A DNA stretch of 64,000 nt. It comes from Rhodopirellula bahusiensis. Lineage in GTDB: Bacteria; Planctomycetota; Planctomycetia; Pirellulales; Pirellulaceae. The notes beneath the pieces are model-generated. The model was not told where the DNA came from and did not search any database. It saw only the letters and a list, made by a program, of their open reading frames with translations. The position numbers were made by a program, and so were the translations under genes. Positions 56,298 through 60,015 of the stretch are shown here, piece by piece (positions within the stretch are counted from its first letter, which is position 1; each line of letters opens with the position of its first letter). The stretch lies in contig NZ_NIZW01000014.1 of assembly GCF_002727185.1 (NCBI RefSeq), forward strand, positions 62,001-126,000. The letters run 5' to 3'.

Positions 56298-56620
56298 GTC
56301 ACGTGCCCCGCGATCGATGTTGAATAAGTGTTGACTAGCACCTCGATAGGTCGAGGCTGTAGAACGCTACATTGGAAAATCGCTTTGAGCCTCGATTAGA
56401 AAGATTTGGGGAGGAGAAACGCGACGCCTAGACTGGGGGTGAAGTGACCTTGGCGGTTAAGCCGGATATGTGGGTCGCTCGGAATCGGATGGGGGGCGGG
56501 CTGCGGAACAAGCCACGTTCTGTCTACACTGCCGAGGATCTGATGTGTTGCGAGAATGGTGGGCATCGTTTGTCAGTCCAATGCGCTTCGTGACTCCGTC
56601 TCCAGGTGAAGGTTCATCGC
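56298..56620. other. Divergent intergenic region
   Basis: 323 bp between the leftward RedB-like operon and the rightward ThrE gene. A palindrome CCTCGA-TAGG-TCGAGG (56341-56356) sits 44 bp upstream of the RedB-like ATG, and a second CCTCGA half lies at 56390-56395. These may bind a regulator of the sensor operon. No gene is supported. Confidence 0.45.
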
Positions 56621-57835
56621 GTGTCCACTGTTTCCTCCGTCGAGCTCATCATGGAACTCGCGAGAAGCTTGCACGCATGCGGGTCTCCGGCGTATGAGTT
56701 GGACCTGGAGATGGAACAGGTCGCTGCTTCGCTGGGCCGGGAAGCGACCTTCTTTTCAACACCGACGGCGTTGTTTGTCACCTTTGGTCGTGACGAGACT
56801 CGACTGTTGCGGGTCTACCCCAGCGATACCAATTTGGGACGCTATGCAGCTCTGTTTGAACTGCAGCGTTCGATTCAGGAAGAGCAGTTGGATGTCCCGC
56901 AAGCGTGGGATCGACTGACTGAGATCAATGAGATGCGAGACGGCTACGGACCGGCGATCCAAATTGCTTCTCACGGTGGAGTTGCGGCCTGCATCAGTGT
57001 TCTGGTGGGAGGCGATGGAATGGTGGTGTTCTCGGCCGGCGTGATTGGATTGATCGTTGGCGTGCTGGTGGTTTGGTTGAACCACCTTCGTCATCAAGTT
57101 CATTTGATCAATGTGGTTGCCGGTTTTGTCGCAAGTTCAATCGCTTGTGTGATTCAGGCCTTTGTGGGATCGGGCAACTTCGAGCTCACCTCGTTGGCAG
57201 CGTTGATCCTGTTGGTTCCTGGGCTGCACCTGACGATCAGCATCAATGAATTGGCAACACAGAATTTGGCGTCGGGCTCGGCTCGTTTCGCCGGGGCGAT
57301 GACAACGTTGCTGACCATCGTGTTTGGAGTTTCGATGGGCTACGGCTTGGTCAACGCGATTCGTCCGGTACCCGCATCCTTGCCACTGAATTCGCCGGAT
57401 CTCTTTGCGTCCGCTTTGGTGCTGGTGCCGATCGGATTATGCGTCGCCGTGACGTTTCGCACGCGCTACCGCGACATCCCTTGGTTGCTGATGTCGACCT
57501 TGGTGGGCTACGGAGCATTGCGATTGGCGGGGACCACGTTTGGGCCGTTCGCTTCGGTTGGAATCGCATCGTTTGTCGCGAGCGTGACCAGTCACTTCGC
57601 ATCCAATCGATTGGGGATTCCGACGGCGGTGATGTTGCTGCCCGCGTTGCTGCTTTTGGTTCCCGGCAGTTTGGGCTTTTCGGGTTTCTCGCAGATCATG
57701 GTGCAAGAAGATTTGCCCAGTGGCATCCGACTGACGGCGACGATGATGTTGACGGCGGTTTCCATCGTCGCGGGGTTGTTGCTGACCGACGTCGTGGTTT
57801 CGCGGTCTGAAAAGCAATCGTCTGAAGAGGGTTGA
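56621..57835 (+). CDS. Threonine/serine exporter (ThrE family)
   Basis: A 404-residue protein. GTG 56621 is preferred (GAAGG 8 nt upstream); GTG 56606 and ATG 56651 are alternatives. The cytoplasmic N-terminal domain has ELARSLHACGSPAYELDLEMEQVAASLGREATFFSTPTALFVTF, the DUF1212/ThrP signature, and the C-terminal half has about ten helices including GVAACISVLVGG and LLVPGLHLTISINELATQNLASGSARFAGAM. The N- and C-terminal parts normally found split in E. coli-type proteins are fused, as in Corynebacterium ThrE. It probably exports threonine and serine using the proton gradient. It faces the DtxR gene convergently, 22 bp apart. Confidence 0.9.
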   Translation: MSTVSSVELIMELARSLHACGSPAYELDLEMEQVAASLGREATFFSTPTALFVTFGRDETRLLRVYPSDTNLGRYAALFELQRSIQEEQLDVPQAWDRLTEINEMRDGYGPAIQIASHGGVAACISVLVGGDGMVVFSAGVIGLIVGVLVVWLNHLRHQVHLINVVAGFVASSIACVIQAFVGSGNFELTSLAALILLVPGLHLTISINELATQNLASGSARFAGAMTTLLTIVFGVSMGYGLVNAIRPVPASLPLNSPDLFASALVLVPIGLCVAVTFRTRYRDIPWLLMSTLVGYGALRLAGTTFGPFASVGIASFVASVTSHFASNRLGIPTAVMLLPALLLLVPGSLGFSGFSQIMVQEDLPSGIRLTATMMLTAVSIVAGLLLTDVVVSRSEKQSSEEG

Positions 57836-57857: not shown

Positions 57858-58304
57858 CTACTTCGGTGCTGGCAGGCCTTCTTTCAAAATGCGTTTCATC
57901 ACCCGGAGTGTCTCATCGCTGACGTGGTGCTCCATTCCTTCGCTGTCCACCGCCGCGGTAGTTTCGCTGACGCCTAGACGCAGCAGGAATGATTGAACGA
58001 CCTTGTGTCGGTTCCGAGCCTTGGTGGCCATTCGCTTGCCTTGCGGCGTCAGCGTGATCGGTTGATAGGGCTCGGTCATGACCAGTCCGTCTCGTTGCAG
58101 GCGGCTGATCGTGTTGTTCACCGTCGCATGCGTGACATCGAAGTGACGCACCAAATCGACCGCGCGACAGATCCCGTTTTCCGCGATGGCCTCCGCGATG
58201 GCCTCGACATAGTCCTCTGCCACTTCACTGGCGTGATCCGATCGAGTGCGGTGATGCGATTGGGAGGGCAATTTGGGGCCTTTGGAACCGTGCGAACGCA
58301 ACAA
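57858..58304 (-). CDS. DtxR/MntR-family metal-dependent repressor
   Basis: A 148-residue protein; no ATG is available, and TTG 58304 is the best start by length (a neighbouring TTG 58301 is possible), with a stop codon upstream in frame. The winged helix reads AEDYVEAIAEAIAENGICRAVDLVRHFDVTHATVNNTISRLQRDGLVMTEPYQPITLTPQGKRMA. The dimerisation and metal-binding part includes NRHKVVQSFLLRLGVSETTAAVDSEGMEHHVSDETLRVMKRIL, with His, Glu and Asp/His ligands of the MntR type (EGMEHH). There is no SH3 domain. It should repress in the presence of Mn2+ or Fe2+. Three near-identical palindromes lie between it and the divergent DUF1559 gene. Confidence 0.93.
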   Translation of the reverse strand: MLRSHGSKGPKLPSQSHHRTRSDHASEVAEDYVEAIAEAIAENGICRAVDLVRHFDVTHATVNNTISRLQRDGLVMTEPYQPITLTPQGKRMATKARNRHKVVQSFLLRLGVSETTAAVDSEGMEHHVSDETLRVMKRILKEGLPAPK

Positions 58305-58375
58305 ATGGTGAGGGTGAACATTCTAGCAGCGAAATTTGAAGGAGAAACCCTCTTGTTTTGTCTCTGAAGGAAATG

Positions 58376-58387
58376 TAGCCTCTGCTA
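58376..58387. promoter_or_regulatory. DtxR-type operator, site 1
   Basis: TAGC-CTCT-GCTA: 4-bp inverted arms with a 4-nt spacer, flanked by G and A so that the right half reads GCTAA. It is the weakest of three equally spaced-arm sites and nearest the DtxR gene. Confidence 0.6.
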
Positions 58388-58392
58388 AACAA

Positions 58393-58408
58393 GTTAGCGG
58401 GTGCTAAC
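58393..58408. promoter_or_regulatory. DtxR-type operator, site 2
   Basis: GTTAGC-GGGT-GCTAAC: perfect 6-bp arms and the same 4-nt spacer. Its centre is 19 bp from that of site 1, about two helical turns, so two dimers could bind side by side. Confidence 0.75.
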
Positions 58409-58489
58409 AAAGGGTGTGTGGGATTGTCAAATTTCTGGCGAGGTGTCGTTGGAATTTTGCCCCGATGCCTTTGTTTTTATTTGCCTCAA

Positions 58490-58509
58490 AACTTAGCTGC
58501 GGCTAAGTT
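58490..58509. promoter_or_regulatory. DtxR-type operator, site 3
   Basis: AACTTAGC-TGCG-GCTAAGTT: perfect 8-bp arms with a 4-nt spacer. It lies 9-28 bp upstream of the GGAG ribosome-binding site region of the DUF1559 gene (ATG 58529), where bound repressor would block its promoter or transcript start. Confidence 0.78.
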
Positions 58510-58528
58510 GTTGCGTTGGAGAATTCTG

Positions 58529-59665
58529 ATGAGACGGGACGAATCGCAGTTGGTTTCGATGGAGGCTGGTGAAGCCCGCAGGAGCGCCGGCGATCAACAA
58601 CATCGAGGTGGTTTCACCCTGGTGGAGCTGTTGGTCGTGATTGCGATCATTGGTGTGCTCGTGGGGTTGTTGTTGCCCGCGGTTCAGGCGGCTCGCGAAG
58701 CGGCTCGGCGAATGTCGTGCAGCAACAACCTTCGTCAGGTTGGTTTGGCCGCCCAGAACTACCACTCTGCCTATCAGCGATTCCCAGCCGGTTATGTGTC
58801 GTTCGAGACCAGTACTGGCGTGGCACCCGCTTCCGTTGCGATGGATCCGGTGACCTGGGACGCCGGGCCCGGTTGGGGCTGGGGGACCGGATTGTTGCCG
58901 TTTCTGGAAGCCACGGCGCTGAACGATCAACTTCGGATGGAGGAGCCGATTTGGTCATTGGCCAATGAATCCGCCATCGCATCACGGGTTCCCACCTTTC
59001 TGTGCCCGAGTGCAGCGGGAGGGGACGATGCGTTTGAAGTGTTGGACGAAGCGGGCAATGCGTTGCAGTTCAATGGTCGGAGTATCGAACTCGGACGCAG
59101 CCATTACGTCGCAAGTCATGGGCAAGAAAGTTGCTGGGGTGAATGTGGCTCTGCGGCGACGGGGATTGTCTTCACCAACATCTACACCTCGGAAACGAAA
59201 ACGATCGTAATCGATGGAGACGCGGGGCGCGTTGCCGATGGTCCGTTTTATCGAAACTCGAGAACGCGATTTCGAGACGTGTTGGATGGGACCAGCAACA
59301 CGATCTTCTTTGGCGAGCACACTTCGTCGCTGAGCGAAAAGACTTGGGTGGGTGTCGTCCCGGGGGCGTTCACGCATCCTCGATTTGCTTCACCTGAAAA
59401 CGGGCCCGACGCTGCTGCAACGCTGACGCTGGTTCACGCGGGACCGTCCGGTGGTGAGCTGGATATCACCGGTTTTCCAATTATCCACCCGGTGAACTTT
59501 CCAACCTATCACGTTGGTCAAATGGTGTCGGACCATCCGGGCGGAGGCATGGTCGCTTTTGGTGACGGATCAGTTCGCTTTGTCAGCGACTTTGTGGATC
59601 TGTTTCTCTGGGCGGAAATGTCCAGCATGAACGAGAGCGAAGTCATCGACTGGGAGAAGCTCTGA
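58529..59665 (+). CDS. DUF1559 pseudopilin-like protein under DtxR-type control
   Basis: A 378-residue protein. ATG 58529 is chosen because GGAG lies 7 nt upstream (58518-58521) and the longer frame to 58418 crosses operator site 3. The leader MRRDESQLVSMEAGEARRSAGDQQHRG precedes GFTLVELLVVIAIIGVLVGLLLPAVQAAREAARRMSCSNNLRQVG. The body has CPSAAGGDDAFEVLDEAGNA, HYVASHGQESCWGECGSAATGIVF and FRDVLDGTSNTIFFGEHTSSLSEKTWVGVVPGAF, ending in a C-terminal FVDLFLWAEMSSMNESEVIDWEKL. Its stop overlaps the next ATG (TGATG). Metal-repressed expression is inferred from the three upstream palindromes. Confidence 0.93.
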   Translation: MRRDESQLVSMEAGEARRSAGDQQHRGGFTLVELLVVIAIIGVLVGLLLPAVQAAREAARRMSCSNNLRQVGLAAQNYHSAYQRFPAGYVSFETSTGVAPASVAMDPVTWDAGPGWGWGTGLLPFLEATALNDQLRMEEPIWSLANESAIASRVPTFLCPSAAGGDDAFEVLDEAGNALQFNGRSIELGRSHYVASHGQESCWGECGSAATGIVFTNIYTSETKTIVIDGDAGRVADGPFYRNSRTRFRDVLDGTSNTIFFGEHTSSLSEKTWVGVVPGAFTHPRFASPENGPDAAATLTLVHAGPSGGELDITGFPIIHPVNFPTYHVGQMVSDHPGGGMVAFGDGSVRFVSDFVDLFLWAEMSSMNESEVIDWEKL

Positions 59666-60015
59666 TGGCGAATTCCAAAGCGGCTCCTGGCAACGAAGGA
59701 AACCCTTGGATCAAATGGGCTTGCATCGCGATCGCCGTGGTCGGCTTGGCGTTCTACTTCTACCCTCGTAGCAGAGTCGAGCTGGACGATCAGGGCTACG
59801 ATGCTTCGGTGGCGCTGTATCGGATTTGCAATCAGAAAGACACGGAGTCTTTGCAAACGGTTGCCGAGCAAGTCGCTCAGTGGCAAACCGAAGGAAAGCT
59901 CTCGGAGCAATCCCACGCATCGCTCCAGCGAGTCATTGATTTGGCCGATGAGGGCGATTGGAACCAAGCCAGCCGGGAATGTCGGCGCATGATGGAAGAT
60001 CAAGTGCAACGCTGA
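59665..60015 (+). CDS. Small membrane-anchored helical protein
   Basis: A 116-residue protein whose ATG overlaps the DUF1559 stop (TGATG), so it is translationally coupled. One transmembrane helix (WIKWACIAIAVVGLAFYFYP) is followed by an approximately 75-residue helical domain (DASVALYRICNQKDTESLQTVAEQVAQWQTEGKLSEQSHASLQRVIDLADEGDWNQASRECRRMMEDQ). I do not recognise a family. The coupling suggests it assists export, assembly or function of the DUF1559 protein in the metal-regulated unit. Confidence 0.82.
   Translation: MANSKAAPGNEGNPWIKWACIAIAVVGLAFYFYPRSRVELDDQGYDASVALYRICNQKDTESLQTVAEQVAQWQTEGKLSEQSHASLQRVIDLADEGDWNQASRECRRMMEDQVQR

Follow-up and report, generated by a model that had tools for sequence, protein, structure and literature searches.

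In the part of the Rhodopirellula bahusiensis genome (7.78 Mb) analysed here, a stretch of 64 kb referred to as the window, three TAGC-N4-GCTA palindromes lie between a metalloregulator gene, mntR, and a divergent gene coding for a DUF1559 protein, which is followed by the gene of a small partner protein (Table 1). The initial annotation, made from the letters alone, had drawn attention to three palindromes with the same spacer in this gap, and they turned out to be the only TAGC-N4-GCTA matches in the window, with cores starting at positions 58376, 58395 and 58494, while simulation of 60 windows with an identical dinucleotide composition gave one match in total. The two 8-bp arms of operator 3 form a perfect palindrome, whose last base lies 20 bp ahead of the ATG of DUF1559, a start codon with GGAG just upstream. 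This fits the place proposed for operator 3, just before the ribosome-binding site, and the proposed TGATG coupling of the downstream gene corresponds to a one-base overlap of the two genes at position 59665.

Table 1. Genes and operators of the locus (positions in the window) and loci with a second palindrome in related genomes.
Feature	Position	Strand	Details
mntR	57858-58304	minus	TTG start, 148 aa
Operator 1	58376-58387		TAGCctctGCTA; TAGC-CTCT-GCTA
Operator 2	58393-58408		GTTAGCgggtGCTAAC; GTTAGC-GGGT-GCTAAC
Operator 3	58490-58509		AACTTAGCtgcgGCTAAGTT; AACTTAGC-TGCG-GCTAAGTT
DUF1559 (PF07596) gene	58529-59665	plus	ATG start, GGAG just upstream, 378 aa
Small partner gene	59665-60015	plus	116 aa
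TTTTGA-N4-TCAAAA instead of MntR box	upstream of DUF1559 in L156, L160, L167, L168, L169, L171		
TTTTGA-N4-TCAAAA instead of MntR box	upstream of DUF1559 in L302-L305, L307		

The longer core TTAGC-N4-GCTAA occurs exactly at four places in the whole genome, two of them in the mntR-DUF1559 gap. Of the other two, one is at the 3' end of an ORF that was identified by eye as rpsI, the other precedes an ORF beside an ATP-synthase-like gene, and both look like chance occurrences. The 20-bp sequence of operator 3 has a single exact copy genome-wide, with 15 other places within three mismatches, all of which have three, and TGTAGC-N4-GCTACA gave no exact match in the genome; further MntR targets were sought by exact patterns of this kind and not with a full weight matrix. 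Chance palindromes are ruled out by this genome-wide rarity, by the simulated windows and by the counts upstream of orthologues given below. No consensus promoter of the sigma-70 type was found between 58250 and 58620, and the positions of the operators relative to the promoter are thus not established. The gap contains two terminator-like stems, one of which is operator 2 itself, and no Rfam family reached its gathering score between 56000 and 62000. Just downstream of mntR (56606-57835) there is a gene for a ThrE-type threonine/serine exporter, a neighbour found only in L045-L049 among 29 mntR regions compared.

The regulator and its sites

The regulator scored 180.6 bits against NCBIfam model NF008273, the equivalog of MntR of the E. 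coli type (cut-off 153), whereas DtxR-type models remained far below their cut-offs. Its identity to E. coli MntR is 42% over 119 residues, and its closest solved relative by sequence is 2h09, which was assigned to E. coli MntR by its match to that protein. In the alignment, D31, E34, H100, E122, E125 and H126 keep all six metal-ligand positions of MntR, which we take to be D8, E11, H77, E99, E102 and H103 in B. subtilis numbering, and Asp31 is presumably at the position that favours manganese in the B. subtilis protein. Judged by these sequence criteria, the regulator is an MntR of the E. coli type and not a generic DtxR, from which it follows that the three palindromes are MntR boxes, in the absence of binding data. 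The operators of the initial annotation are therefore real, but its label for them, DtxR-type, has to be replaced. Likewise, where it had left the choice between manganese and iron, the regulator's family, ligands and Asp31 point to manganese rather than iron.

The sites fit this assignment. Operator 3 resembles the mntH box of E. coli MG1655 (AACATAGC-CTTT-GCTATGTT), and the locus shares with the E. coli MntR regulon (mntH, mntS, mntP) the same curated regulator family and the TAGC-N4-GCTA core. Operators 1 and 2 are 19 bp apart, a pair also present in L045, L046, L047 and L049, and in this they are like the two MntR boxes that lie 19 bp apart between mntS and mntR in MG1655. Unlike in E. coli, the target is neither a transporter, an exporter nor MntS, but a pilin-like DUF1559 protein with its partner.

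Conservation of the gene pair and its operators

In a tree of 96 proteins, the 66 metal-linked DUF1559 proteins formed one clade with support 100/99, and all 29 sampled paralogues fell outside it. A search with the regulator in 60 related genomes gave 30 matches at 48% identity or more, and the 29 regions outside the source genome were compared. A DUF1559 gene of the clade is divergent from mntR in 23 of them, one (L070) has a distant DUF1559 paralogue, and five have no DUF1559 gene beside mntR. In L065 and L071 (genomes G045 and G007), a ZnuA-type ABC transporter is divergent from mntR with MntR boxes at its start, and neither this transporter nor a DUF1559 gene was seen beside mntR in L053, L058 and L060. 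Even in the genus, the clade gene is missing beside MntR in G005 and G007, as far as the locus itself is concerned. In G005, the distant DUF1559 gene (L070:3162-4160, minus strand), which groups with the paralogues in the same tree, is the neighbour of a second mntR and has two MntR boxes in front of it, an apparent recruitment of another family member.

The partner gene follows the clade closely. A profile trained on 23 partner sequences matched directly behind 65 of the 66 clade DUF1559 genes, 42 of 43 when only genes outside the training set are counted, and the single gene without a match is at a contig end; behind other DUF1559 genes there was no match (0/30). The DUF1559 gene and its partner are an obligate two-gene unit, as compact as had been suggested from the window alone.

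For the operators, the DUF1559 protein was searched in 297 genomes of the class. Class A comprises matches from several families with 53-79% identity and 380 bits or more, below which scores drop to under 300 bits and identities are mostly 37-53%. The 450 bp upstream of the prepilin motif were scanned for the MntR box and for a second palindrome, searched as TTTGA-N4-TCAAA. Of the 51 class A genes, 37 have an exact MntR box in this stretch, against 0.33 expected from shuffles, as do 4/15 class B/C genes. TTTTGA-N4-TCAAAA precedes seven of the 51 class A genes, one of which has both palindromes, and four of the 15 class B/C genes. Upstream of the 29 sampled paralogues, which were taken from the best Pfam scorers of the source genome, neither the MntR box (0/29) nor the second palindrome (0/29) was present. 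Absence of the operators upstream of orthologues would have refuted the initial annotation, which has withstood this check. As to the rest of class A, six genes have only a box with one mismatch (7.5 expected, uninformative alone) and two have none, one of these with just 119 bp of upstream sequence; in class B/C, five genes have no box and two a one-mismatch box. These counts are subject to two reservations: closely related species are not independent, and 24 of the 51 class A genes, the window included, came from the mntR-led search, so that this part is biased. The 27 class A genes found through DUF1559 alone were distributed as 15 with the MntR box, six with the second palindrome, four with a near miss and two with none. 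Moreover, ten loci with an exact box have no mntR within about 1.5 kb (L147, L149, L150, L152, L153, L159, L163-L165 and L170; nine of family f22, L147 of family f1), and mntR is elsewhere in their genomes. In 294 genomes across the phylum, 17 had a DUF1559 match at E 1e-60 or better, the source genome included, and none of these 17 is outside its class, a threshold at which weaker class B/C members are missed.

Box type and regulator change together. Thirty-eight genomes were compared, the 27 found via DUF1559 and 11 from class B/C that have a box. MntR of the E. coli type, at 53-73% identity, was present in 19 of 20 genomes with an exact MntR box and in none of 12 with the TTTTGA box (p 5.8e-8). 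The exception is G118, with an MntR box and no such regulator. All four near-miss genomes have this MntR (4/4), and of the two without a box one lacks it and the other has it together with a truncated upstream sequence. Nine further class A genomes, picked by DUF1559 and not by box, all agreed with the rule (9/9), four having MntR and the MntR box and five having the second palindrome without MntR. MntR of the E. coli type is missing from each of the seven class B/C genomes that have no exact box, and G109 has neither an exact box nor this regulator. Taken over 54 genomes, the 28 with MntR of the E. coli type comprise 23 with an exact box before the pair, four near misses and one with none; the 26 without it comprise 17 with the second palindrome, one with the MntR box, two near misses and six with none. 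That operator and regulator switch together between genomes amounts to a natural experiment in regulon rewiring.

Features of the DUF1559 protein and its partner

The DUF1559 protein matches PF07596 with 195.3 bits (cut-off 23.3), carries a prepilin motif (N_methyl, 31.7 versus 21.2) with the leader GFTLVELL, and has the H-X9-DG end (TIGR04294, 31.6 against a cut-off of 19). PF07596 has 85 domain matches in the source genome, some of them pieces of one gene, and the family has about 80 members there. The available parts of earlier reports present DUF1559, or SBP_bac_10, as a family that is large in planctomycetes and has no known function, with 74 genes in R. baltica (PMC2754498), 68 in Planctopirus limnophila, two of which are essential (PMC10632474), and 91 proteins combining the prepilin motif and the PF07596 domain in Tuwongella immobilis (PMC8567305). 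The present protein shares with this family the domain and the prepilin leader, but, unlike other DUF1559 proteins, it is part of a distinct clade that has histidines, a partner gene and metal-type operators of its own.

Five histidines of the mature protein mark the clade. Their identities in class A (39 rows), class B/C (18 rows) and other DUF1559 proteins (60 rows, taken as paralogues) were 87/78/5% for H165, 100/78/3% for H237, 100/94/7% for H276, 100/100/5% for H293 and 100/100/8% for H301. H170, E173, C175 and C179 are additionally conserved in class A alone. That these histidines form a metal site is inferred from their conservation, no spatial data being at hand. A structure model based on an alignment of 117 rows reached a pLDDT of 94.3 and a pTM of 0.91, while one from 25 rows had a pLDDT of only 43. 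Forty of the 117 rows came from the 80 loci, mostly of distant DUF1559 relatives, that a search for a very common peptide pattern had given, and 37 of the forty are counted in the paralogue group of the histidine comparison. The 117-row model consists of a long N-terminal helix (4-55) and a mixed globular domain. Foldseek gave no match to a solved structure in the PDB with an E-value of 0.001 or lower, its best match being a type IVb pilus entry (E 0.19); the prepilin leader and the hydrophobic N-terminal helix of type IV pilins and pseudopilins are both present in the protein. PF01297, the family of ZnuA/MntC-type ABC solute-binding proteins, was absent among the families matched at E 0.1. 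The 116-aa partner has a single hydrophobic segment at its N-terminus, judged by eye to be transmembrane, and no Pfam or NCBIfam family was above cut-off for it. A simple pattern found a lipobox-like motif in 28 of 66 candidate partners, one of which, behind L070, is not a true partner.

A putative manganese-acquisition module

Control of the pair by MntR is well supported by the comparative evidence above, within the limits of what sequences can tell, and the pair appears to be switched on when manganese is scarce, a metal response that is inferred. The reading we favour, and regard as rather probable without being secure, is that of an extracytoplasmic manganese-acquisition module repressed by MntR, in which binding of the regulator, repression, metal binding and uptake are all inferences. 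Mn2+-charged MntR would occupy operators 1 and 2, which it may share with, or use for autoregulation of, the divergent mntR, and operator 3, in the start region of the DUF1559 transcript, where it would repress the two-gene operon. When Mn2+ falls, MntR would be released and the pair made. After processing at the prepilin leader, the DUF1559 protein would stay in the inner membrane or be assembled from it, its globular domain lying outside the cytoplasm; this pseudopilus-like placement is inferred, as is the "surface system" of the initial annotation, from the prepilin leader. H165, H237, H276, H293 and H301 might be ligands of Mn2+ or of some related divalent metal, the small membrane-type protein would be a dedicated partner of DUF1559, and the pair would scavenge manganese or hand it to importers of the Nramp or ABC type, a delivery likewise inferred. 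A more specific version, in which the histidine-bearing pilin-like protein and its membrane-anchored partner build a metal-capturing pseudopilus that passes Mn2+ to Nramp/ABC importers, is possible but doubtful on present evidence.

The link to importers rests on other genomes. Among the 60 matches listed, 39 ZnuA-type (Mn/Zn) ABC metal-binding-protein genes were examined, and the second palindrome precedes 12 of them (0.013 expected) and the MntR box three (0.24 expected); since both palindromes precede ABC genes, both operators are used in common by the pair and by metal transporters. In G053, a TTTTGA box is followed by DUF1559, partner and an Nramp importer, in this order and on the same strand; this is the only one of 20 DUF1559 loci compared with importer proteins (L172) that has an importer beside the pair. 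The ABC gene of the source genome has neither palindrome and those of its ABC and Nramp regions that were examined are without an exact MntR box, so that coupling to an importer is not shown there. These data bear on a rival explanation in which manganese is only a signal: at low manganese the pair would construct or reshape a fibre or an adhesive structure on the surface, without binding or transporting metal. The prepilin leader and the pilin-type N-terminal helix would suit such a role, as would the very large size of a family whose sampled paralogues lack these operators. However, the five clade-specific histidines are nearly absent from paralogues, the operators also precede ABC transporter genes, and the DUF1559-partner-Nramp row of G053 likewise speaks against it. 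We thus consider it unlikely, without setting it aside.

Less credible still is a reading that gives the effector role to the small membrane-type protein, which, as a counterpart of E. coli MntS, would tune a manganese transporter, and makes DUF1559 its partner or chaperone. E. coli MntS, a small MntR-repressed protein of 42 aa in the available part of PMC4361602, is also encoded beside mntR with two boxes 19 bp apart, and the partner is obligate here. It is nevertheless DUF1559 that is the better conserved of the two, with 57-93% identity (43% in L068) versus 28-83% for the partner among clade members beside mntR, and the clade-specific residues sit in DUF1559. Pfam, for its part, names both domains of the regulator iron-dependent repressor. 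In some species, proteins of the MntR family can be iron-responsive, which would allow an iron-responsive uptake module of the DtxR/IdeR kind. We consider this very improbable in view of the MntR equivalog score above cut-off and the DtxR models far below theirs, of Asp31 at what we presume to be the manganese-favouring position, and of boxes that match the E. coli type. Which way the control works is itself only inferred, because B. subtilis MntR, which also represses, can activate exporter genes through several upstream sites (PMC11275975, available in part); yet activation of the pair at manganese excess, for efflux or detoxification, is the least probable reading of all, given boxes that also precede uptake-type ABC transporter genes and an operator 3 that ends 20 bp before the start codon, where repression is inferred to be likelier.

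For the manganese-acquisition module, the closest parallel is the MntR-regulated TBDR-pTFP locus near mntR in Stenotrophomonas maltophilia, proposed to serve manganese acquisition (PMC13217887). As far as the available part of that paper goes, it too has an MntR box and two genes for an unusual extracytoplasmic pair, but these code for a TonB-dependent receptor and a thioredoxin-fold protein, with no pilin-like protein. The literature searched, which excluded most subscription papers and included sources available only in part, contained no report tying DUF1559 to MntR or manganese, none joining MntR with Rhodopirellula and no prior description of the MntR-DUF1559-partner module. The pilin-like protein and small membrane partner found in many planctomycetes are, by inference from sequence, probably a manganese-scavenging system that has not been described. 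DUF1559 is among the largest planctomycete protein families, and one clade is now tied to a named metal, regulator, operator and partner, which gives a member of the family a directly testable function. If the pseudopilus version were true, metal would be acquired without a TonB receptor and without an ordinary solute-binding protein, and such a module would have persisted in much of the class Planctomycetia while regulator and operator changed.

A candidate for the regulator acting at the TTTTGA box is a DtxR-type gene of 220-250 aa, and ten loci around DtxR-type matches were checked. The box lies beside the DtxR-type gene in one of them (L317); in L311, TTTTGA boxes precede an ABC operon whose permease carries the DtxR-type match, and in L314 the DtxR-type gene is divergent from an ABC operon with no exact box. 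The remaining loci of the ten showed no TTTTGA box, so that the gene is not assigned to the box on these grounds. In L065 (8128-9600), the ABC-3 permease of a Mn/Zn-type operon carries at its C-terminus a metal-binding domain of the DtxR type (PF02742), which looks like a fusion of transporter and sensor, and a similar frame is found in L071 (8576-10090).
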